Below are positions 50,737-64,000 of a stretch of 64,000 bases of DNA, piece after piece. Origin of the DNA: Geomonas agri. GTDB lineage: Bacteria > Desulfobacterota > Desulfuromonadia > Geobacterales > Geobacteraceae. Both the position numbers and the translations under genes were made by a program. Below the pieces are notes generated by a model. The model was not told the origin of the DNA. It searched no databases and saw only the letters and a program-made list of their open reading frames with translations. The stretch lies in the NCBI RefSeq assembly GCF_020179605.1, contig NZ_JAINZO010000001.1, positions 310,001 to 374,000 on the forward strand, in the 5' to 3' direction. The stretch's first letter is position 1; each line of letters opens with the position of its first letter.

Positions 50737-51978
50737 TCAGGAGCAGCACCTTATGCCGACTTCTCCCTCGCTTAACAGGTCCACTTCCCTCATCAGCGCC
50801 AGGTCTACTTCGCTTCCTGCCGGAATGAAGGTGGCGTCGCAGGGGAGGGCGGCCAGGGCGTCGCACCTGGTCATGGTGCTCAGGATGGCGGTGTGTTGCT
50901 CGCCGGCGCAGTAGGCGACGTGCCTGCCATGACGCTTCTTCACCGTGACCCTGATGAAATGCAGCTTGCCGGGCTTCTTGTGCGCGTCCTCGGCAAGGAT
51001 TCCTTTTACGAAGGGGGGAAGCACCCGGTGGTGCCCCATCATCTTCAACAGGGCGGGCTTCACCAGCAGCTCGAAGGTCACCATGGTCGACACGGGGTTC
51101 CCCGGGAGCGAGAAGATCGGCTTTCCCTGCCAGACCGAGAATGCCGTGGGGCCGCCCGGCTTCATCCCGATCTTCCAGAACAGTTCCTCTGCACCGAGGC
51201 TCGCGGCTACCTCCCGGACCAAGTCGCGGTCACCGGCGGAGACGCCAGCCGAGGTGATCAGTGCATCGCAACAAAGACCTTCCCGCATCTTGTCTTGGTG
51301 ACTCTCCAGGTTGTCCCGCGCGATCCCTAGCAGCACTGGCTCGGCGCCCGCCTCGCGGACGGCGGCGGCCAGCGACAACGCATTGGAGTTGATCACGCTG
51401 CCGGCCTTGGGGCTCTCGCCGAGTTCGATAAGCTCGTCCCCGGTGGACAGTATCGCCACCCGCGCCTTGCGGTAGACCGGCACCAGCGCCTGCCCCATGG
51501 CCGCCAGCATGCCGACCTCGGCGGGGCGAACCTGGCTGCCGGCGGGGAGGACCTGGGTGCCGCAGGCTACGTCGTTTCCTTTGCTCCGGACGTGCTGCTT
51601 GGGGAGCACCCTCTGCTTGATCACGACGTGGGCCCCTTCCTGCTCGGTTTCTTCGATGGGTACCACTGCATTGCATCCAGGGGGGATGGGGGCGCCGGTC
51701 ATGATGCGCACGGCGCAACCGACGGATACGGTCGGGCAGTCCGCGCCTCCGGCGGGGAGGAACCCGGTGATGAGAAGACGGGCGGGGACCGAGGTGCAAT
51801 CGGCGGCATGCACGGCATAGCCGTCCATGGCGGAATTGTCGTATTGCGGCAGGTCCCAGGGAGCGATGATGTCTCTGCTTACCACCCGCCCCAGGGCGTC
51901 CGACAGCGCTACGTTTTCTTCGCCCAGCGGGGCGACGTGGGCCAGTATGATGCCTCGCGCTTCTTCAAAGCTTGGCAT
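50737..51978 (-). CDS. moeA: Molybdopterin molybdenumtransferase
   Basis: 413 residues. Inserts molybdate (or tungstate) into adenylated molybdopterin. Family features: 'PQYDNSAMDGYAV', 'GCAVRIMTGAPIPPGCNAVV' (in parts), 'ILSTGDELIELG', 'SAGVSAGDRDLV' and 'FSLPGNPVSTMVTFELLV'. Start at 51978 ('MPSFEEARGIIL') is conserved. It lies downstream of the MoeB-like, MoaD-like and AOR genes on the same strand, suggesting a role in making the AOR tungsten/molybdenum cofactor. Confidence 0.95.
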   Translation of the reverse strand: MPSFEEARGIILAHVAPLGEENVALSDALGRVVSRDIIAPWDLPQYDNSAMDGYAVHAADCTSVPARLLITGFLPAGGADCPTVSVGCAVRIMTGAPIPPGCNAVVPIEETEQEGAHVVIKQRVLPKQHVRSKGNDVACGTQVLPAGSQVRPAEVGMLAAMGQALVPVYRKARVAILSTGDELIELGESPKAGSVINSNALSLAAAVREAGAEPVLLGIARDNLESHQDKMREGLCCDALITSAGVSAGDRDLVREVAASLGAEELFWKIGMKPGGPTAFSVWQGKPIFSLPGNPVSTMVTFELLVKPALLKMMGHHRVLPPFVKGILAEDAHKKPGKLHFIRVTVKKRHGRHVAYCAGEQHTAILSTMTRCDALAALPCDATFIPAGSEVDLALMREVDLLSEGEVGIRCCS

Positions 51979-52106: not shown

Positions 52107-52958
52107 TTAGGCGGCGTCTACCAGGGTGACCGGGGCCGGAGCGTAGGATATCTCCTGCATCTCCATTTCCAGCAGGTCAATCGTCAGTTTGCGGTTTCTG
52201 AGCGGCTCACCCTTGCCGAGCAGGATCTTGCAGACTTCGGCCACCTCGAGGCTCGCCACGACGGCAGGTGTGAAGGAGGGGTTGCCGAGCTGCTGCTCGA
52301 TCCCCTTGCCCGCGACCCAGTGGCGATAGATCTGCTGCACCGTGGTCTCGCCGGGGAACTGGGAGGCGACGTGTCCGTACCAGCCGCCGATGGCGCCGTG
52401 CACCATGGGGATGCCGGCTACGTTGCAGAACTCGGCCAGCTGAAGCCGGTACGAGATGCTGTCCAGGGCGTCCACCGCGATCTGTGCTCCCGCCAGCAGC
52501 TCGAAGCCGTTAGCCAGGCAGAAGTAGTCCTGGATGGCGGTGACCGTGACGGCGGGATTCACCTGCGCCAGCCGTTCGGCAGCTACCGCCGCCTTGGGCT
52601 GTCCCAGCAGGGCAGGGGTGGAGAGGATCTGTCGGTTCAGGTTGTGTTCTTCGAAGATGTCCGGATCGACGGCGATGATCTGCCCGACCCCGAGGCGGGC
52701 CAGCTCTTCCAGGACGTAGCCGCCCAAGCCGCCGCAGCCGATCACAGCGACGCGGCTTTGGAACAGGCACAGCTGCTCGTCGACCTGGATCATGTTGCGG
52801 TTGCGCTGGTAGCGCGCCGGATAGAGGCCATTTTGCAGGGCAAGCAGTTCGACCGCTGCGTGGCTCAGGTTGAAGCGCTTGGCCGTCGCATCCTGGGCGC
52901 TCCAGGGAAGCAGGCCGTCCTGCGCCTGCTCTTTCAGAAAAGTGATCACCTTGCGCAT
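52107..52958 (-). CDS. MoeB/ThiF-family adenylyltransferase
   Basis: 283 residues. Nucleotide loop 'VAVIGCGGLGGYVLEELARLGVG', 'VDPDIFEEHNLNRQIL', and 'VDALDSISYRLQLAEFC' identify an E1-like enzyme that adenylates the C-terminal Gly-Gly of a sulfur carrier. It lacks the CxxC zinc pairs of standard MoeB, so it belongs to a divergent branch. GGAGGAGG precedes ATG 52958, and the stop of the MoaD-like gene is at 52960, so the two genes are translationally coupled and the carrier is its obvious substrate. Confidence 0.9.
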   Translation of the reverse strand: MRKVITFLKEQAQDGLLPWSAQDATAKRFNLSHAAVELLALQNGLYPARYQRNRNMIQVDEQLCLFQSRVAVIGCGGLGGYVLEELARLGVGQIIAVDPDIFEEHNLNRQILSTPALLGQPKAAVAAERLAQVNPAVTVTAIQDYFCLANGFELLAGAQIAVDALDSISYRLQLAEFCNVAGIPMVHGAIGGWYGHVASQFPGETTVQQIYRHWVAGKGIEQQLGNPSFTPAVVASLEVAEVCKILLGKGEPLRNRKLTIDLLEMEMQEISYAPAPVTLVDAA

Positions 52959-52959
52959 A

Positions 52960-53184
52960 TCAGCCTCCTCCAACCAGGGGAAAGAGCGAAAGGGTATCGC
53001 CCTGGTTCAGTTTGCTGTCCAGCTCACCGTGCCGGCCATTCAGCATGACGATACCGATCTCCTCCTCGGTGAGCCCGAGGGAGAGCACCACCTGGCGCAC
53101 GTCGGTCCCCTCGGCGAGCTCCTGCTCGGCGACTTTGAACCTGCCGTTTCTGAATGTGGCGAAAAGCTTGAGAGTTATCTTCAT
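52960..53184 (-). CDS. MoaD/ThiS-family sulfur carrier
   Basis: 74 residues with a beta-grasp pattern ('MKITLKLFATFRNGRF', 'VMLNGRHGELDSKLNQGDTLSLFP') ending in the functional Gly-Gly ('LVGGG'). After adenylation and thiocarboxylation it would donate sulfur to molybdopterin synthase or a pterin-related step. It lies between AOR and its E1-like partner, so it is likely dedicated to the AOR tungstopterin. The frame extends upstream but ATG 53184 fits the family. Confidence 0.88.
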   Translation of the reverse strand: MKITLKLFATFRNGRFKVAEQELAEGTDVRQVVLSLGLTEEEIGIVMLNGRHGELDSKLNQGDTLSLFPLVGGG

Positions 53185-53257: not shown

Positions 53258-54988
53258 CTAGAAGTTCCAGAACTCGTCGATTTCCTCGTCGGTGAAGTCC
53301 CACACCGCATTGTGCGGTGCGACCGGCTCGGTCTTGAAGAAGTCCGGCAGACGGTCGTGGACGTTGGTGAGACCGGCTTTCTGGTTGAACTCGCGCTCGG
53401 TCTTCAGGATGTACTTGCCCAGGTTGGTGACGTCGTCGCCGGTGAGGGCGATGCCGAAGCGGGCGTTGATCATGTCGATCAGGGCCGGGAGGCACTCCGG
53501 AATGTCCAGCGCCGGGAAGGCAACGAAGATGCACATACCGGTGGAGTCAACCGCGGCGGTAGCGATCTGCAGGGCACGGGAGAGCTCGACCTGACCGTCC
53601 TTCTTGAGCGGATCGACGTAGCCGCCGACGTTCAGGATGTTGGTGGCGATGGTGTAGCCGGAGGTGTGGTCGGCGCCCATGGTGGAGGTGGCGTAGGTGA
53701 TGCCGATGCCCTTGACGGAGCGCGGGTCGTACGCCGGGATGCCCTGGTTCTTGACCACGGGTACGCGAGTCACACCGTAGGTGCGGCCGACGGAGCCTGC
53801 GCCGCCACCCAGGACGCGGCCCAAAGCGGTGCCCTTGGCGATTTCGTCGGTCAGCAGGCGGAGCATTTCCTTGGAGTCGCCCCACTTGAGGATGCCGGCT
53901 TCCATGGCCACGCCGAACATGACGGCGGTTTCGATGGAGTCGATCCCGATGTCGTCCATCAGGTTGTCGGCGCGGGCGATGTCGTCCAGGTTGTCGATGC
54001 AGCAGTCGGCGCCCAGGCCCCAGATGGTCTCGTACTCGAAGCCGGAGGTGACGTACTTGCCGTCCTTGTCGTGATAGACCTGCGAGCACTGGATGATGCA
54101 GCCGGCATGGCAACCATGTTTGGGTTTGCCGCCGCGCGCCACGATGGTGTCGTGCATGGTCTCGCCGGAGATCTTGTCGTGCCCTTCAAACTGACCGGTG
54201 GTGAAGTTCTTGGTCGGCAGGCCGCCAGCTTCGTTGAGGATGTTGACGAGGACGTTGGTGCCGTAGGTCGGGAGACCTTCGCCGGAGACCGGGTGGTCGA
54301 GAAGCGCCTTGGAGAACGCCCTTGCTGCGGTTTTGAATTTCTCCGGATCCGCGATGGTCACGGGTTTCGCGCCTTCGCCGTCGATGGAGATGAACTTGAT
54401 CTGCTTGGAGCCCATGACTGCGCCCAGGCCGCCACGGCCGTGGCTGCGGATCTTGCTGTCCGGGTCCTTCACGGAAATGTTGGCGGCGGTCATCTTCAGT
54501 TCGCCGGCCGGGCCGATGGTGAGGACGCCGGTCTTTTTGCCCAGGCGGGCCTCGACCGCGTCGATGACGGCGAAGTTACCCAGGCCAAGCAGTTCCTTCT
54601 CCTCGTTGATGGTGACGCCGTTCACGCCCACCGCCAGGTTGTACCATGCGCCGGTTTTCGGTGCGCCTTCGATGATGATGGCCTTGATGCCGAGCTTAGC
54701 CAGCATCTGTGCCGCGGTGCCACCTGCGTTGGACTCCTTGATGCCGCCGGTGAGCGGGCTCTTGGCGCCTGCGGAGAGACGGCCCGAGTTCGCTGCAGCG
54801 GTGCCGGTCAGCAGGCCCGGTGCGAAAACCAGCTTGTTGTCGGCGGAAAGTGCGTGGCAGGTCGGCGGTACTTCGGCGGCCACGATGGTGGAGGTGAGGC
54901 CACGGCCACCCAGGCCTGCCCATGCTGCCGGAACTTCTTCGATCTTGGTGGTGAGGTCGGTCATGTTGACGCGAAAAATCTTATCCAT
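53258..54988 (-). CDS. aor: Aldehyde:ferredoxin oxidoreductase (tungsten type)
   Basis: 576 residues. Oxidises aldehydes to acids, reducing ferredoxin, with a bis-pterin tungsten (or molybdenum) centre and a [4Fe-4S] cluster. Cluster ligands are in 'HGCHAGCIIQCSQ' plus a C-terminal Cys ('STGMCIFVAFP'); 'AGAKSPLTGGIKESNAGG' and 'SHGRGGLGAVMGSKQIK' are AOR signatures. ATG 54988 is chosen over TTG 54997 on ribosome-binding-site spacing. Together with the Fe-ADH it gives alcohol to acid oxidation. Confidence 0.96.
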   Translation of the reverse strand: MDKIFRVNMTDLTTKIEEVPAAWAGLGGRGLTSTIVAAEVPPTCHALSADNKLVFAPGLLTGTAAANSGRLSAGAKSPLTGGIKESNAGGTAAQMLAKLGIKAIIIEGAPKTGAWYNLAVGVNGVTINEEKELLGLGNFAVIDAVEARLGKKTGVLTIGPAGELKMTAANISVKDPDSKIRSHGRGGLGAVMGSKQIKFISIDGEGAKPVTIADPEKFKTAARAFSKALLDHPVSGEGLPTYGTNVLVNILNEAGGLPTKNFTTGQFEGHDKISGETMHDTIVARGGKPKHGCHAGCIIQCSQVYHDKDGKYVTSGFEYETIWGLGADCCIDNLDDIARADNLMDDIGIDSIETAVMFGVAMEAGILKWGDSKEMLRLLTDEIAKGTALGRVLGGGAGSVGRTYGVTRVPVVKNQGIPAYDPRSVKGIGITYATSTMGADHTSGYTIATNILNVGGYVDPLKKDGQVELSRALQIATAAVDSTGMCIFVAFPALDIPECLPALIDMINARFGIALTGDDVTNLGKYILKTEREFNQKAGLTNVHDRLPDFFKTEPVAPHNAVWDFTDEEIDEFWNF

Positions 54989-55271
54989 GCTTTTCAAGCT
55001 CCCTGTTTTTGTTTAGTTCTACCGGCAGTGCTGACCGCCGGGACTCCTTTCCAAGAGGGAGGCTCCGCCGTTTCCAGCGAAACCCGTTGGCCTGGAGCCA
55101 TGAGGGAAGTTCCCTTTTAGGCTGCGACGGCTCGGAGATTTTTTGATGCGTGACTGACCCGACACCGCTTACGCATCTCTTGCATGTGCTCGGGCCTGCG
55201 CGCCGGTCGGGCCCGCAGGCGGTTTCAACTTGCCCCTCCCCCGGGGGGGAGGGGATCATGCTACTACGGTA
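54989..55271. other. Spacer Fe-ADH/AOR with repeat and hairpins
   Basis: No gene seen. It contains a GCCTGCG/CGCAGGC stem (55194-55220), the palindromic repeat copy F (GCCCCTCCCCCGGGGGGGAG, 55232-55254), and no clear promoter. If AOR is co-transcribed with the upstream Fe-ADH, this spacer would be part of the message. Confidence 0.5.
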
Positions 55272-56435
55272 TTACATTGCGTCCTTGAAGATCTGGATGA
55301 CCTGCTCGAGGGTCGCTTTGCGCGGGTTGGTGAACTGGCAAGCGTCCTTCTTCGCGTTTTCTGCCATGATGGCCAGGTCCTCTTCCTTGACATTGAGGGC
55401 CTTGAGGCCGGTCGGGATGCCGATGGAAGCGGAGAGGCTGCGGATCCTGTCGATGGCTTTCTGGCCAGCTTCGGTCACGGACAGACCGTCGACGTTCTCG
55501 CCGAGAGCCTTGGCGATGTGAGCGAAACGCTCCGGGCAGGCGATCAGGTTGTACTGGCTGACGGCCGGCAGCAGGATGGCGTTGCAGACGCCGTGCGGCA
55601 GGTTGTAGAAGCCGCCCAGCTGGTGAGCCATGGAGTGGACGTAGCCCAGGGACGCGTTGTTGAACGCCATGCCGGCCAGGTACTCGGCGTAAGCCATCTT
55701 GTCACGTGCCTCGAGGTCTTCGCCGTTAGCGACAGCCTTGGAGAGGTAGGTGGCGATCAGTTCGATGGCCTTGATGGCGCATGCGTCGGTGATCGGGGTA
55801 GCGATGGTGGAGACGTAAGCCTCGACAGCGTGGGTCAGGGCGTCCATGCCGGTTGCAGCGGTCAGGGCTGCCGGCTTGCCGACCATGAGCAGCGGATCGT
55901 TGATGGCGATGTTCGGAGTGCAGCGCCAGTCGACGATAGCCATCTTCACGTGGGTGTCGGTGTTGGTGATGATGCAGAAGCGGGTCATCTCGGAAGCGGT
56001 GCCTGCGGTGGTGTTGATGGCGACGAACGGCGGCATCGGTTTGGTGGACTTGTTGATGCCTTCGAAGTCGCGGATGTGGCCGCCGTTGCCGATGACCAGG
56101 CCTACACCTTTGGCACAGTCATGGGAGGAACCGCCGCCCAGGGAGATGATGGCGTCGCAGCCGTTGTCCTGGTACACCTTCACGCCGTCGTGCACGTTGG
56201 TGTCGGTCGGGTTGGGCTCAGCGCCGTCGAAGATGATGGCTTTTACGCCGGTAGCTTCTACCTGCTCCTTGATCTTGTCAGCAACGCCCATGGCCGAGAG
56301 GCCCTTGTCAGTGACGATCAGCGCCTTGGAAGCGCCCAGTGCCTTAACCTGGTCGCCGGTCTCTTTAGCGGAGCCGATGCCCATCAGTGATACCGTCGGG
56401 ATGTAGAAACCGTAAGTCTGCTCTCCTAATGCCAT
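55272..56435 (-). CDS. Iron-containing alcohol dehydrogenase
   Basis: 387 residues, typical group III Fe-ADH. 'GGGSSHDCAKGVGLV' binds the nucleotide; metal ligands lie in 'DPLLMVGKPAALTAATGMDALTHAVEAYVS' (in parts) and 'GYVHSMAHQLGGFYNLPHGVCNAILLP' (in parts). Oxidises short alcohols such as ethanol with NAD+, giving the aldehyde for the AOR downstream. GGGGGAA lies 7 bases before ATG 56435. A sigma-54 promoter match lies ~110 bases upstream. Confidence 0.95.
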   Translation of the reverse strand: MALGEQTYGFYIPTVSLMGIGSAKETGDQVKALGASKALIVTDKGLSAMGVADKIKEQVEATGVKAIIFDGAEPNPTDTNVHDGVKVYQDNGCDAIISLGGGSSHDCAKGVGLVIGNGGHIRDFEGINKSTKPMPPFVAINTTAGTASEMTRFCIITNTDTHVKMAIVDWRCTPNIAINDPLLMVGKPAALTAATGMDALTHAVEAYVSTIATPITDACAIKAIELIATYLSKAVANGEDLEARDKMAYAEYLAGMAFNNASLGYVHSMAHQLGGFYNLPHGVCNAILLPAVSQYNLIACPERFAHIAKALGENVDGLSVTEAGQKAIDRIRSLSASIGIPTGLKALNVKEEDLAIMAENAKKDACQFTNPRKATLEQVIQIFKDAM

Positions 56436-56540
56436 TTTCAATTCCCCCTGTTGTTTTTCCGGGCTGGACCCGGTTCTTTTTGTTTTTAAGAAGGTGGTGC
56501 CGTGCTGCATACACTTTCCTAAAACGGTTTTCTACGCTAT

Positions 56541-56556
56541 CGCAAGGGGCGTACCA
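56541..56556 (-). promoter_or_regulatory. Sigma-54 (-24/-12) promoter of the Fe-ADH gene
   Basis: Minus strand TGGTACGCCCCTTGCG: GG and GC are exactly 10 bases apart, and the sequence differs from TGGCACG-N4-TTGCW at only two positions. Transcription would start about 95 bases before ATG 56435. Confidence 0.75.
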
Positions 56557-56684
56557 GAATTTGCTGTAAACACAATTTTTCGGGATACTGAATAATATTC
56601 ACAGGATACCGTATACTTAACCAGCGCTGTGTTTGCTGCCTCCACTATCCCCTCCGAAGTTGCGTCCTCAAATCGAACAGTTGC

Positions 56685-56722
56685 AACGTTCCACAATGGA
56701 ACGTTTGCTCTTTTGTGGAACG
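56685..56722. promoter_or_regulatory. Palindromic upstream activating sequence for a sigma-54 activator
   Basis: A perfect palindrome at 56685-56705 (arms AACGTTCCA and TGGAACGTT, centre CAA) is followed by a second TGGAACG half-site at 56716-56722. It lies ~130 bases upstream of the Fe-ADH promoter and ~165 bases upstream of the moaA promoter, as expected for an enhancer-binding protein site. Confidence 0.7.
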
Positions 56723-56870
56723 CACGTTTTGCTGTGCCAACCGTCGTCACACTCCCCGCCTGTATGTTGAATTCAAGAAGACAAAAATCGGTTCGTTTCC
56801 CATGTATTCACCAGCTTAGTTGCTCCCTCATTAGTGGCTGATCTCCCTTTTTGCTCCGAATCGGGACAAT

Positions 56871-56886
56871 TGGTATCGATATTGCC
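56871..56886 (+). promoter_or_regulatory. Candidate sigma-54 promoter of moaA
   Basis: TGGTATCGATATTGCC has GG (56872-56873) and GC (56884-56885) with 10 bases between and an intact TTGC box; about 40 bases before the moaA start. Confidence 0.55.
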
Positions 56887-56925
56887 TTTGTATACGGCGA
56901 GGCGTGTTTCCGAAGGGAGTAAGGC

Positions 56926-57906
56926 ATGGCACTGATCGATACCTACGGCAGGCGGATCAACTACTTAAGACTCTCGGTCACCGACCGCTGCAACATGCGC
57001 TGCTGCTACTGCATGCCGGCGCAGGGGGTGGCGAAGCTCGGGCATAAAGAGATGCTGAGCTACGAGGAGCTGTACCGCGTCTCCGCCGCGTGCGTGGAGC
57101 AGGGGATAGAGAAGATCAGGGTAACCGGCGGGGAGCCGCTGGTACGGAAGGGGCTGGTCGATTTCCTGGGACGCCTTTCGGCGCTGCCGGGTCTGAAGGA
57201 ACTCGTGCTGACCACCAATGGACTGCTGCTGGAAGAGTTGGCCCAGCCGCTCAAGGATGCCGGGGTCGCCAGGCTCAACATCAGCCTCGACTCCCTGCAG
57301 CCGGAAACCTTCGCCCGGGTTACCCGGGGTGCGGACCTGAACCGGGTGCTGGCCGGGATCGATGCGGCACAGAAGGCTGGCTTCGGTCCGCTCAAGATCA
57401 ACATGGTGGTGATGCGCGGGGTGAACGATCACGAGATCTTGGACTTCGCGGCGCTGACCCTGGAGAAGCCGTTCACGGTTCGCTTTATAGAGTACATGCC
57501 GACCCTTCAGGACGAGGAGTGGGGCGCCCAGAGCATGCCGGGGAGCGAGATCCTCTCCACTATCGGCGAGCGGTATCCGCTGCTGCCTCTGGTCAGTTCG
57601 GAGATGGCGGGGCCGGCCAGGAACTACAAGATACAGGGGGCGGCGGGTGCCATCGGGATCATCACCCCGGTCTCCGGCCACTTCTGCGAGAGCTGCAACC
57701 GGATCAGGATCACGGCGACCGGCCGGGTGCGCGGCTGCCTCTTCTCGGAACAGGGCACGGAGCTGAAGCCGCTCCTGGCCAGCGAGGACCCCGAGGCGCT
57801 GCGGCAGACCCTGCGCAGCATCGTGACCCAGAAGCCGGGTAGGCACCATATCGCCGAGGAAGGATCTGAACAGGCGGTGGTCAATATGTCGAGGATTGGC
57901 GGTTAA
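56926..57906 (+). CDS. moaA: GTP 3',8-cyclase (molybdopterin synthesis)
   Basis: 326-residue radical SAM enzyme, first step of molybdopterin synthesis. N-terminal cluster C-x3-C-x2-C in 'TDRCNMRCCYCMPAQG', 'RVTGGEPLVRKG', and the second, substrate-binding cluster 'CESCNRIRITATGRVRGCLF'; ends in the essential Gly-Gly. GAAGGGAG precedes ATG 56926. Divergent from the Fe-ADH/AOR genes, whose AOR requires the pterin. Confidence 0.97.
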   Translation: MALIDTYGRRINYLRLSVTDRCNMRCCYCMPAQGVAKLGHKEMLSYEELYRVSAACVEQGIEKIRVTGGEPLVRKGLVDFLGRLSALPGLKELVLTTNGLLLEELAQPLKDAGVARLNISLDSLQPETFARVTRGADLNRVLAGIDAAQKAGFGPLKINMVVMRGVNDHEILDFAALTLEKPFTVRFIEYMPTLQDEEWGAQSMPGSEILSTIGERYPLLPLVSSEMAGPARNYKIQGAAGAIGIITPVSGHFCESCNRIRITATGRVRGCLFSEQGTELKPLLASEDPEALRQTLRSIVTQKPGRHHIAEEGSEQAVVNMSRIGG

Positions 57907-57983
57907 AGGCAGGGGCTAGGGGCTGGCGAAAGGCTGCCAGGGGACTGGTTCCGCAGGTGCCCCCCCTTAACACGGAGGAAGCA

Positions 57984-58415
57984 ATGAGCGCATCGGTAGT
58001 GGCGGTCAACATAAGCCGCAACAAAGGCGAGAGGAAGAAGGCGGCGCCGGAGGTACACCTGCGGGAGAACTTCGGCATCATCGGTGATGGGCACGCGGGG
58101 GACTGGCATCGTCAGGTGAGCCTGCTCGCCCAGGAGAGCATAGACAAGATGGTGCAACTAGGGCTGTCGGTCGGCGCCGGGGACTTTGCCGAAAACATCA
58201 CCACCCGGGGCATTGACCTCATGCACCTCCCCGTCGGTACCCGGCTCGGCATCGGTCCGGCGGTGCTGGAGATCTCCCAGATCGGGAAGGTCTGCCACAC
58301 CCGCTGCGCCATCTACTACCAGGCCGGCGACTGTGTCATGCCCAAGGAAGGTGTCTTCGCGACTGTGATTAGCGGCGGGGTGGTACGCCCCGACGATGAG
58401 ATCGAGCTGCTCTAA
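57984..58415 (+). CDS. MOSC-domain protein
   Basis: 143 residues. Conserved MOSC features are 'GIIGDGHAGDWHRQVSLLAQESI', 'GDFAENITTRGIDL' (in parts) and the cysteine-bearing 'GKVCHTRCAIYY'. MOSC proteins bind or carry molybdenum cofactor or sulfur for it. CGGAGGAAG selects ATG 57984. Placed 77 bases after moaA, fitting pterin handling. Confidence 0.9.
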   Translation: MSASVVAVNISRNKGERKKAAPEVHLRENFGIIGDGHAGDWHRQVSLLAQESIDKMVQLGLSVGAGDFAENITTRGIDLMHLPVGTRLGIGPAVLEISQIGKVCHTRCAIYYQAGDCVMPKEGVFATVISGGVVRPDDEIELL

Positions 58416-58458
58416 ACGCAGCATATTTTCAGGACCAAAAAGAAGGGGAGAAGAAGTC

Positions 58459-58632
58459 ATGAAGGACAGAAGCCAGAAAAAAGTGAACATCATCTCAATC
58501 CGTATGAGCGACGACGAGCGTGACGCAATCCAGAAGCTGATGGACAAGAGGGGGAAGAAGGCTTCCTTCATCATGCGCGAGGCGTTCGCACTGTTCAGGG
58601 AGCAGTGGGAGCTTTCCAGGGCTAGCCACTAA
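58459..58632 (+). CDS. Ribbon-helix-helix DNA-binding protein
   Basis: 57 residues. The pattern is a basic strand ('KKVNIISIRMSDDERDAIQKL') followed by a second helix ('KKASFIMREAFALFREQWEL'), typical of CopG/MetJ-like regulators. GGGGAG precedes ATG 58459. It lies 43 bases after the MOSC gene on the same strand and may regulate this operon or the following etf genes; a toxin partner is not present. Confidence 0.8.
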   Translation: MKDRSQKKVNIISIRMSDDERDAIQKLMDKRGKKASFIMREAFALFREQWELSRASH

Positions 58633-58641
58633 GCCAGAAGC

Positions 58642-58659
58642 CACCAAAACCTATGTGGA
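58642..58659 (+). repeat. Short direct repeat before etfB2 (copy 1)
   Basis: CACCAAAACCTATGTGGA, repeated with one mismatch at 59586-59603 in front of the second etfA, each followed by GTGGAC-rich sequence. Nothing else was recognised in the 58633-58768 spacer. Confidence 0.7.
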
Positions 58660-58768
58660 ACCAGGTGGACGTGGTGGACACGAGTGGGCTGTGGCTGAAG
58701 GCAGGTTAAACGCTGGACGGAGAGTTGGCTGAGAGTTCGAAACTGCTTGCGGAAGGAAAGGAATTTAC

Positions 58769-59581
58769 ATGTACGTAGTGGCTTGCATTAAACAGGTGCC
58801 GGATACAACCCAGGTGCAGATCGACCCGGTCACTAATACGCTGGTGCGCGATGGCATTCCCTTCATCGTCAACCCTTACGACACCCACGCCGTCGAGGAA
58901 AGCCTGCGCATGAAGGCCCGCTACGGCTTCAAGGCGGCCGCACTCTCGATGGGGCCGCCCAACACGGAGGCGACCCTCCGTAAGGCGCTGGCCCTCGGGG
59001 TGGACGAGGCGATCCTCTGCTCGGACCGCGCCTTCGGCGGCGCAGACACGCTTTCCACCAGCAACGTGCTGGCGGCGGCGATCAGGAAACTAGCCCAGGA
59101 GGACGAGGTGGGCATCGTCTTCTGCGGCAAACAGACCATCGACGGCGATACGGCCCAGGTCGGCCCGGGCATCGCCATCCGCCTCGGATTCTCGCAGCTT
59201 ACCCTGGTGGACCGGATCGAGCACCTCGACTTTCTTGCCAAGAAGATCCGGGTCCGGCGCAAGCTGGAAGGTCGCTACGAGATCGTGGAGGCGAAGCTGC
59301 CGGCGATGATCACGGTGGTGCGCGAACTGAACCGCCCGCGCTACCCGACAGTCCCCATGCGGCTCAAGGCTGCCAAGGCGGAGGTCAAGGTCTGGGACAA
59401 TAAGGAACTCCAGCTGGACCCGAACAGCGTCGGCCTGAAGGGCTCGCCCACCTGGGTGAGCAGGATCTTCTCGCCGCAACGCGCGGCGGGCGAGATCATC
59501 GGCGACGGCCTGGGCGACCCGGCGGGCACCGCCCGGCTGTTGCTGGAGAAGCTGGTTGCCAGCGACATGCTGGCGGTGTAG
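58769..59581 (+). CDS. etfB: Electron transfer flavoprotein beta subunit (second copy)
   Basis: 270 residues. 'YVVACIKQVPDTTQVQIDP', 'NPYDTHAVEESLRMK', 'GKQTIDGDTAQVGPGIAIRLG' and 'ITVVRELNRPRYPTVPMRLKA' (in parts) are EtfB signatures. It resembles the EtfB that accompanies ferredoxin-bearing EtfA in obligate anaerobes, and differs clearly from the first copy at 34.9 kb. GGAAGGAAAGG precedes ATG 58769. Operon with etfA2 and the EMO-like gene. Confidence 0.94.
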   Translation: MYVVACIKQVPDTTQVQIDPVTNTLVRDGIPFIVNPYDTHAVEESLRMKARYGFKAAALSMGPPNTEATLRKALALGVDEAILCSDRAFGGADTLSTSNVLAAAIRKLAQEDEVGIVFCGKQTIDGDTAQVGPGIAIRLGFSQLTLVDRIEHLDFLAKKIRVRRKLEGRYEIVEAKLPAMITVVRELNRPRYPTVPMRLKAAKAEVKVWDNKELQLDPNSVGLKGSPTWVSRIFSPQRAAGEIIGDGLGDPAGTARLLLEKLVASDMLAV

Positions 59582-59585
59582 GCGT

Positions 59586-59603
59586 CACCAAAACCTTTGT
59601 GGA
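59586..59603 (+). repeat. Short direct repeat before etfA2 (copy 2)
   Basis: CACCAAAACCTTTGTGGA, matching 58642-58659 in 17 of 18 positions. Confidence 0.7.
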
Positions 59604-59662
59604 CTGAGCGGACACCGGTGGCCCCGGTGGACCTGATGGACGTGACTAGGAGCGGGGGAAAG

Positions 59663-61012
59663 ATGGCTGAAGCTAAAACTAAACTGAAAAAGCCGCGCGG
59701 GAAGGTTCGGCTCATAGAGGGGAAGTGCATCGCCTGTGGCGCGCGCTGCCAGAGCAGCTGCCCAGTGGACGGCATCCAGATGAGCGACGCGGGCGAACCG
59801 CAAATCGAACTCTCCAAGTGCATCGGCTGCCTTAAGTGCGTGAAGGCCTGCCCGGGTTCGGCCCTGGAGATCTTCTATTCACCGGAGGAACTGGAGATCC
59901 TGGCGCAATTGGCCGGACAGCAGGACCTGGCGGAAGAGGACGCGGACCCGGAAGAACTGGCGCGCCGCGAACTGGTGGCGGCTTACCGCGGGGTCTGGGT
60001 TTTCGTGGAACAGACCGAAGGTGAGGCGGCCCGCGTTTCCTGGGAACTGATGGGCAAGGGACAGGAGCTCGCGGCCAAGCTGGGCGTGGAACTGTGCGCG
60101 GTGGTCATGGGCGACCAGGTGGAGCATCTGTGCCGCGAAGCCTTCAGCTACGGCGCGAACAAGGCCTACCTCATGGATCAGCCGGTGCTCAAGCACTACC
60201 GCACCTACCCGTACCTGGACGCCCTGTGCCACCTGATCGACAAGTACAAGCCGGAGATCGTCCTCATGGGCGCAACGGGCATGGGGCGCGACCTGGCCGG
60301 CGCCGTGGCGACCCGCGTCAAGACCGGCCTCACCGCGGACTGTACCGGGCTGGACATCGATGCCAAAAGGAACCTGATGCAGACCCGGCCGGCCTTCGGC
60401 GGCAACATCATGGCGACCATCATGTGCGACCGGTTCCGCCCCCAGATGGCGACGGTACGCTCCCACGTGATGCCGATGCCGGCGCAGATGTCGGGGCGCA
60501 CCGGCAAGATCGTCCCGGTCAGCCTCCCCATCTCCGAGGCGGACATTTTCACCAAGGTGCTCCAGGTGATCCGAGACAAGAAGGCGGGTGATGTCGACAT
60601 TGCCGGCGCCGAGTTCATCGTCTCCGGCGGGCGCGGCATGATGGCCAAAGAGAACTTCGCCATACTGCAGGAACTGGCCGACGAGCTGGGCGGTGTCGTG
60701 GGTGCCTCGCGTAGCGCGGTCGATGCGGGCTGGATGCCGGGCGACCGCCAAGTCGGGCAGACCGGCAAGACCGTGCGTCCCAAGATCTACATCGCCTGCG
60801 GCATCTCCGGCGCCATCCAGCACCTGGTGGGGATGCAGGATTCCGACCTGATCGTCGCCATTAACCGCGATAAGGAGGCCCCGATCTTCGAGGTGGCCAA
60901 CTACGGCATCGTGGGCGACCTGTTCGAAGTGGTCCCGGCCCTCACCACCGCCTTGCGCGAGATGAAGACGAGCAAGGGGCCGGCCGAGGTCAAGGACAGC
61001 AAGGCGGCGTAG
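59663..61012 (+). CDS. etfA: Electron transfer flavoprotein alpha subunit with 2[4Fe-4S] ferredoxin domain
   Basis: 449 residues. An N-terminal ferredoxin domain carries two cluster motifs ('[16 protein letters not shown]' and '[15 protein letters not shown]'), then a ~110-190 linker and a normal EtfA FAD domain ('[18 protein letters not shown]', '[12 protein letters not shown]', '[14 protein letters not shown]', '[17 protein letters not shown]'). The extra clusters give electron paths beyond flavins. CGGGGGAAAG selects ATG 59663. Works with the EtfB before it and passes electrons to the downstream EMO-like protein. Confidence 0.95.
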
Positions 61013-61162: not shown

Positions 61163-61230
61163 AAGTGGACGTCGCACGATCTAAAGGGTGTGAACGCTAC
61201 CGCTGACAAAACATTTACAAGGACATGTAT

Positions 61231-63201
<1,971 letters not shown>

Positions 63202-63431: not shown

Positions 63432-64000
63432 ATGCAAAGCAACGCAGCGGCGCTGTCTGAATTCATGCCTGCCAACGAGCCGGCCTTTCGTGAGTACCCT
63501 TCCAAGCTGTTCGTGGAAACCACCAGCCGCTGCAACCTGAACTGCGTCATGTGCATGAAGCAGAACGGGGACGGCAGCCGGGCCAAGGACGGTGACCTCG
63601 ACCTCGCCACATTCAGCGAACTGGAACCGGCGCTCCCCAACGTGGAGGCGCTGGTGCTCAACGGCGTCGGCGAGCCGCTCTTGAACACGCGGCTTGAACA
63701 CTTCATCAGCCGGGCCAAGAAGCTGATGCCGGCAGGAAGCTGGATCGGCTTCCAGAGTAACGGCCTGCTCCTCTCGCACCTGCGCGCCGTGTCGCTCTTG
63801 AACGCGGGCGTGGACCGGGTTTGCCTCTCCATGGACGGCGTGGACGCTACCACCTTCAGCTCCATCCGCTCGGGGAGCCAGCTGGTGGACCTGGAGCACG
63901 CCCTGAACGCGCTGGGCGCCGCCAAGTCCGCCTGCCACCGCCCCGACATGGAGATCGGCGTCGAGTTCGTGGTGATGCGGGATAACCTGGCGCAGCTCCC
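63432..64000 (+). CDS. Radical SAM protein, partial at window end
   Basis: At least 189 residues, cut by the window edge. ATG 63432 follows GAGG at 63419-63422. The cluster motif is C-x3-C-x2-C in 'TTSRCNLNCVMCMKQNGDG', followed by 'VLNGVGEPLLNTRLEHF' and 'VCLSMDGVDATTF', typical of the SPASM/MoaA-like radical SAM group (heme d1, peptide or unknown modification). No specific substrate can be named from the N-terminal part. It starts in the spacer after repeat copy H and is probably separate from the etf operon. Confidence 0.88.
   Translation, partial: MQSNAAALSEFMPANEPAFREYPSKLFVETTSRCNLNCVMCMKQNGDGSRAKDGDLDLATFSELEPALPNVEALVLNGVGEPLLNTRLEHFISRAKKLMPAGSWIGFQSNGLLLSHLRAVSLLNAGVDRVCLSMDGVDATTFSSIRSGSQLVDLEHALNALGAAKSACHRPDMEIGVEFVVMRDNLAQL

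Follow-up and report, generated by a model that had tools for sequence, protein, structure and literature searches.

A divergent intergenic region with two sigma-54-type promoter boxes and a three-site operator array between alcohol/aldehyde oxidation and pterin cofactor genes in Geomonas agri

Genes of the Locus

The window (the whole analysed stretch of 64,000 nucleotides of Geomonas agri, G000:C1:310001-374000) holds a 490-bp intergenic region from which genes are read outward on both strands, with alcohol and aldehyde oxidation genes on the minus arm and moaA as the first gene of the plus arm. The start of the alcohol dehydrogenase gene was placed by matches in relatives, and the genes are as follows:

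50737-51978, minus: MoeA-like molybdotransferase, possibly a separate unit
52107-52973, minus: MoeB/ThiF-like adenylyltransferase, below model cut-offs
52960-53184, minus: MoaD/ThiS-like sulfur carrier, ThiS above cut-off (internal ATG, counted by hand)
53258-54997, minus: aldehyde:ferredoxin oxidoreductase (AOR), Pfam AFOR_N and AFOR_C above cut-off
55272-56435, minus: Fe-containing alcohol dehydrogenase (ADH1), first gene of the minus arm, matching Fe-ADH models, none above its curated cut-off
56926-57906, plus: moaA (GTP 3',8-cyclase), first gene of the plus arm, TIGR02666 at 384 bits (cut-off 284)
57957-58415, plus: MOSC-domain protein, Pfam MOSC above cut-off
58459-58632, plus: 57-aa protein between MOSC and etfB, without NCBIfam or Pfam match
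58769-59581, plus: electron transfer flavoprotein beta subunit (etfB), below cut-offs
59597-61012, plus: electron transfer flavoprotein alpha subunit (etfA) with a ferredoxin-like stretch, below cut-offs
61225-63201, plus: iron-sulfur protein with CCG domains (Pfam CCG, Fer4)
63495-64000, plus, running off the window end: radical SAM/SPASM putative metalloenzyme maturase TIGR04311 (full gene G000:C1:373495-374766)

The TIGR04311 protein scores 623 bits against a cut-off of 400, is the sole match of its model in this genome, and would presumably serve a metal enzyme. A preliminary description of this DNA had equated the divergent arm with moaA, which is indeed its first gene here, but the arm also carries the MOSC, electron transfer flavoprotein, iron-sulfur protein and TIGR04311 maturase genes. 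On the other arm, a strong terminator-like hairpin with a T tail (53244-53217, minus) lies between AOR, which it directly follows, and the MoaD-like gene, so that moaD and thiF may be partly uncoupled from the ADH promoter. No strict sigma-54 box of AOR's own was found, and we therefore suppose that its transcription starts at the ADH promoter. By eye, the 57-aa protein may be ribbon-helix-helix-like; small proteins resembling it are found on the divergent arm at two other loci (L037, L039), and in L039 it is joined to a MOSC-like start.

Promoter Boxes and Operator Sites

The intergenic region contains the following elements:

56542-56556, minus: sigma-54 -24/-12 box of the ADH/AOR arm, TGGTACGCCCCTTGC, GG-N10-GC
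56664-56678: operator site 1, GTCCTCAAATCGAAC, degenerate in this genome
56685-56705: palindrome with 9-bp arms, AACGTTCCA-CAA-TGGAACGTT
56688-56702: operator site 2, GTTCCACAATGGAAC, the core of the palindrome
56707-56721: operator site 3, GCTCTTTTGTGGAAC, whose good half is the earlier-noted half-site TTGTGGAACG at 56713-56722
56871-56885, plus: sigma-54 -24/-12 box of the moaA arm, TGGTATCGATATTGC, GG-N10-GC

Both boxes have the GG-N10-GC spacing of sigma-54 promoters together with the TGGYAY/TTGC consensus, and they point outward from the central palindrome. When both strands of the 64-kb window were searched with TGGYAYN5TTGC, these two boxes were the only matches, while 20 dinucleotide-shuffled windows gave a mean of 0.3; one box on each strand was obtained in none of 2000 dinucleotide shuffles of the intergenic region. 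The outward-facing boxes with exact spacing, as initially described, are therefore confirmed. RpoN itself is encoded in the genome (one PF04552 match, G000:C3:71230-71706).

The operator between the boxes consists of three 15-bp GTTCCANNNTGGAAC-type sites with centres 24 and 19 bp apart, and GTTCCAN3TGGAAC arose in none of 2000 dinucleotide shuffles of the region. The palindrome and extra half-site noted before are both present; the operator is nevertheless larger than they implied, and among relatives only the GTTCCA-N3-TGGAAC core is kept, not the 9-bp arms. Site 1 had been overlooked because it is degenerate in this genome, and better forms of it occur in relatives. The centre of site 2 lies 139 nt from the near end of the ADH box and 176 nt from that of the moaA box, which agrees with the expectation that activator sites stand at the usual distance of about 80-200 bp.

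A search for TGGAACG palindromes, suggested as a way to the activator's regulon, found CGTTCCA-N(0-24)-TGGAACG at one place in the 4.68-Mb genome. Allowing one mismatch, GTTCCANNNTGGAAC was found at 17 places in the genome against 2 for the reversed control, and over ten genomes at 102 against 35; with two mismatches (158 against 92 for the control) the search was of little use. A strict sigma-54 box within 400 bp of a site was present at 3 of the 19 loci of this genome that were examined (the region itself, the promoter of a second Fe-ADH described below, and L097), so no wider regulon is claimed, and defining one by the motif alone was rejected. At L097 (G000:C2:397384), a possible further target, 50 bp separate the one-mismatch operator site from its strict sigma-54 box. 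One more site, close to a different regulator (C1:1777273), was taken as chance, since it lies inside the adjacent kinase match.

Comparison with Relatives

ADH1 at 78% identity or more was present in 34 of the 78 genomes searched, and 38 of its loci were compared: 30 from as many genomes, the principal copy in each of G022, G026, G030 and G043, and a second copy in four genomes. The two boxes, together with the three-site array, were found in 34 of the 38 loci, namely in the principal locus of every one of the 34 ADH1 genomes. The four loci without the region are the second ADH1-AOR copies L044, L046, L055 and L056 (in G023, G037, G041 and G022), which must therefore be controlled otherwise. 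In the 34 loci, the ADH-arm box lies at -105 to -129 and the moaA-arm box at -425 to -451 from the ADH start, and the array (spacing 19 and 24) scores 22-31 of 36, whereas the best of 1020 mononucleotide-shuffled regions scored 20; the weakest arrays are those of L028 (22, with a poor site 1) and L022 (25). An alignment of 23 ADH1-moaA intergenic regions contained both boxes in every row with operator-like sites between them; a stretch at about 56503-56532, downstream of the ADH box, is also well kept, and no second operator kept in all rows was seen. Loss of the palindrome in relatives that keep the genes, named beforehand as evidence against the proposal, was thus not encountered, since the core array is present in 34/34 ADH1 genomes.

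The divergent gene is more variable. It is moaA in 25 of the 34 genomes, and in the other nine the box stays and other genes stand there: the first sizeable frame is a TIGR04311-type radical-SAM protein in three (G028, G026, G043) and etfB in one (G033), small or truncated frames precede other genes in four (G057, G065, G076, G066), and in G039 the contig ends before the first gene can be assigned. A TIGR04311 gene lies within 10 kb of ADH1 on the divergent strand in 22 of the 34 genomes; of the remaining 12, three (G008, G016, G066) have no match and the rest have it on another contig. In G066 a frame at 777-1172 from the ADH1 start on the divergent side (L040) is a fragment resembling the TIGR04311 end and a possible remnant.

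The genome has two moaA genes, and the ADH-linked one is a second copy. In a tree of 25 linked copies and 11 unlinked rows, the latter a sample of the unlinked copies, a branch sets all 25 ADH-linked moaA genes apart from the unlinked ones; its support is modest (84/77, found in 80% of 200 bootstrap trees). Within 450 bp upstream of the unlinked moaA genes, neither a strict box nor a site with up to two mismatches was found in any of the ten examined.

Two other genera of the family (g4 and g12) have a second layout. All eight loci taken from them have one sigma-54-like box, called by a loose pattern, upstream of a 70-71% identical ADH, and a GTTCCAAAATGGATT site about 100 bp above that box; only one operator site was found in these loci, not three. 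ADH is followed in one direction by AOR-moaA-MOSC in six of the eight, the other two contigs ending within AOR. A one-component activator is encoded directly upstream in seven; the contig of the eighth stops about 0.9 kb before ADH on that side. As the same ADH-AOR-moaA grouping recurs in this second layout, the link between enzyme and cofactor supply is supported more than by the divergent layout alone. The original proposal of a sigma-54 divergon with such a link is strengthened by the 34/34 conservation and by the one-box layout of these genera, but its moaA part has to be narrowed, as moaA is absent from the divergent arm in 9 of 34 genomes.

Candidate Activators

None of the 49 Sigma54_activat matches of this genome lies within the 64-kb window. 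A second Fe-ADH gene (ADH2, 46% identical to ADH1) has a one-mismatch operator site about 260 bp upstream, and this site led to an operon, 1.1 Mb from the ADH1 region, that encodes ADH2, a GAF-PAS histidine kinase of 555 aa and an NtrC-type response regulator:

G000:C1:1493041-1494606: NtrC-type response regulator, likely activator, encoded with ADH2 and the kinase

By Pfam, the regulator has a receiver, an AAA+ sigma-54 interaction domain and a Fis-type HTH, and the GAFTGA motif is present in it. The best family of ADH2 is ErcA (NF041833), with 482 bits against a curated cut-off of 550, and we therefore call it only ErcA-like. It retains the aligned Asp and His residues that serve as iron ligands in the Fe-ADH family.

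The regulator (E up to 1e-130) is present in 28 of the 34 ADH1 genomes and in none of the 44 others (Fisher p 1e-15, with kinship ignored), and outside the genus in 11 of 17 ADH1 genomes against 0 of 42 others (p 4e-8, likewise with kinship ignored). In six genomes the ADH2/kinase/regulator operon lies near ADH1, either on its divergent side with other frames between (G057, G065, G076 and G066; the G065 contig ends after the kinase) or convergent, just behind thiF (G016, G008). From this co-occurrence and placement, the NtrC-type regulator encoded with ADH2 and the kinase is the likely activator of the region, and it would bind the array at 56664-56721. At the promoter of the ADH2 operon, a strict sigma-54 box was found in 8 of the 10 genus loci (L054 and L109 lack it) and in none of the 11 loci outside the genus; six of the eight boxed promoters (not L110 and L113) also have an operator-like site with up to three mismatches within 300 bp upstream. 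The occurrence of box and site in some loci only suggests autoregulation of the operon in part of the genus. At L117, the ADH2 promoter has two operator-like sites 23 bp apart.

Six ADH1 genomes lack the two-component regulator, and four of them (G023, G028, G033, G043) have another sigma-54 activator near ADH1. A search with the last 107 residues of the regulator, in which one protein per genome was counted at E up to 1e-4, returned one protein in each of these four (E 2.5e-8 to 1.9e-11), namely a GAF-PAS activator of about 650 residues located 6-12.5 kb from ADH1 and split into two frames in G043. In the reversed search with the HTH of the one-component activator, the regulator was the best of 30 of the 49 activators of this genome that were compared. 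Weaker HTH matches to other activators were found in G004 (2.6e-5) and G017 (3.9e-6), both without ADH1, and in G039 (2.5e-5), and the last 107 residues have two weaker matches in the regulator's own genome. G026 carries both the two-component regulator and the one-component activator, and neither was found in G030 and G039, ADH1 genomes that are 85% and 70% complete.

Several genera that retain the operator have this GAF-PAS activator close to ADH1, for the most part in genomes that lack the two-component regulator. The single activator that had been proposed is probably the two-component regulator in most genomes, but in some it would be this different protein. Copies of it are at L043 1371-3329, L045 16739-18688, L051 6018-7964 and L128 6405-8360, and the best NCBIfam model of the L043 copy is DhaR, below cut-off. 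G017, which has no ADH1, encodes a sigma-54 activator in a 665-residue frame (L123, G017:C221:19208) about 4 kb from a TIGR04311 gene (G017:C221:13987-15255).

Discussion

The boxes, the array, their conservation, the synteny and the co-occurrence with the regulator are all legible in the sequences. We consider it quite probable that this is a two-way sigma-54 region, in which one enhancer-binding protein acts on the array and both arms are induced together, with the NtrC-type regulator as the likely activator. The phosphorylated regulator would assemble on the three central sites, loop the DNA either way, contact sigma-54 polymerase at both boxes and open both outward promoters. The minus arm would then yield Fe-ADH and AOR, with the MoaD- and MoeB-like partners downstream, while the plus arm, induced alongside, would supply moaA with the MOSC, electron transfer flavoprotein, iron-sulfur and TIGR04311 maturase proteins; each arm would be co-transcribed. 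The inducer would be an alcohol or aldehyde, probably sensed by the ADH2/kinase pair, the metal would presumably be tungsten, and in some relatives the GAF-PAS one-component activator would take the place of the two-component regulator. Taken together, the conservation, the second layout and the co-occurrence of the regulator make joint induction of the enzymes and their cofactor supply well supported by comparison, as far as genomes alone can indicate.

A regulator other than the ADH2-linked one could act on the array, as there are about 49 sigma-54 activator matches in this genome. The ADH2 operon is 1.1 Mb away here, its promoter does not carry the box and sites universally, and a different activator is encoded near ADH1 in G023, G028, G033, G043 and G026, all of which would fit such a reading; we nevertheless judge it unlikely, given the co-occurrence of 28/34 against 0/44 and the six genomes in which the operon lies close to ADH1. 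The sigma-54 promoters could also be real but answer to different activators or at different times, with the array serving one arm and the divergence reflecting gene packing. This would agree with the slightly shorter distance from site 2 to the ADH box (139 nt, against 176 nt to the moaA box) and with the change of the divergent gene in 9/34, but the boxes vary little in position (-105 to -129 and -425 to -451) and are kept despite that change, and no second operator was seen to run through all 23 aligned regions, although 56503-56532 is well kept. Service of one arm only is, in our estimation, quite improbable.

A role of the palindrome as terminator or RNA element, or control of moaA by a molybdenum-cofactor riboswitch, appears very improbable. 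The palindrome at 56685-56705 does score as a weak terminator-like hairpin, but conservation is limited to the inverted GTTCCA/TGGAAC cores, which occur as three spaced copies, and no annotated-size gene ends just upstream of it. A molybdenum-cofactor riboswitch or other structured RNA was rejected, as no Rfam family matched at E up to 1 over 55900-58900.

Beyond the two-way region itself, a fuller reading can be offered tentatively, with slightly less than even confidence: ADH2, which is of catalytic type, would sense alcohol or aldehyde for the kinase and the NtrC-type activator, and one three-site operator would switch a probably tungsten-dependent pathway together with dedicated second-copy cofactor and maturation genes. 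The divergent genes would change, and a GAF-PAS activator whose DNA-binding end is similar would replace the sensor, without loss of the operator or of either promoter.

The supply of pterin metal cofactors has mostly been described as matched to their enzymes via metal-sensing repressors and riboswitches. If the proposal is true, a dedicated set of cofactor genes would answer, through the shared operator, to the inducer of the enzyme itself. The candidate activator, the binding sites, the predicted regulon and the swap of sensors lend themselves to direct tests in culturable Geomonas and Geobacter relatives, and the proposal hints at what the TIGR04311 maturases, so far uncharacterised, may do.

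The open-licence PMC literature yielded no description of the region, which does not prove that none exists. DVU2405 of Desulfovibrio vulgaris is, we assume, an alcohol dehydrogenase. The operon DVU2405-DVU2399, labelled 'energy metabolism', is the target of the response regulator DVU2394 (PMC4641369), so that, like here, a two-component sigma-54 regulator goes with an energy-metabolism operon; the likeness is one of description, and the description given in that source includes no cofactor gene or divergent arm. In the same species, sigma-54 and a single cognate regulator jointly control the divergent orp operons (Fievet et al. 2011, cited in PMC10084766), as proposed here for two divergent arms, but the genes are others; here the pairing is of a catabolic enzyme with genes for part of the cofactor it needs, and the likely activator gene lies elsewhere in the genome. 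Going by what these sources describe, neither sigma-54 divergons nor the control of energy genes by two-component sigma-54 systems is new (PMC10084766, PMC4641369).

In Geobacter metallireducens, the ethanol dehydrogenase Gmet_1046, the AOR Gmet_1045 and the Fe-ADH Gmet_1053 (PMC7324539) are by their description probably the same enzyme pair as here, and no regulator or promoter is given for them in the part of the source that concerns them. The AOR of Pelobacter carbinolicus likewise belongs to alcohol oxidation and is tied to cofactor or tungsten status (PMC3543383, PMC4275255), but its genes are described with a predicted molybdenum-cofactor riboswitch (PMC3543383), whereas none was found here by the Rfam search. 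For the proposed sensor, the nearest counterpart is in Pseudomonas, where ErcA/YiaY and a co-cistronic histidine kinase are described as acting upstream of the ethanol oxidation genes (PMC12997753); ADH2 is similarly an Fe-ADH paralogue co-encoded with a histidine kinase, and by analogy with what is discussed there for YiaY/ErcA the pair may report alcohol or aldehyde. The Pseudomonas pair is described as acting on AgmR and the PQQ system (PMC12997753), whereas the third gene here encodes an NtrC-type sigma-54 activator.
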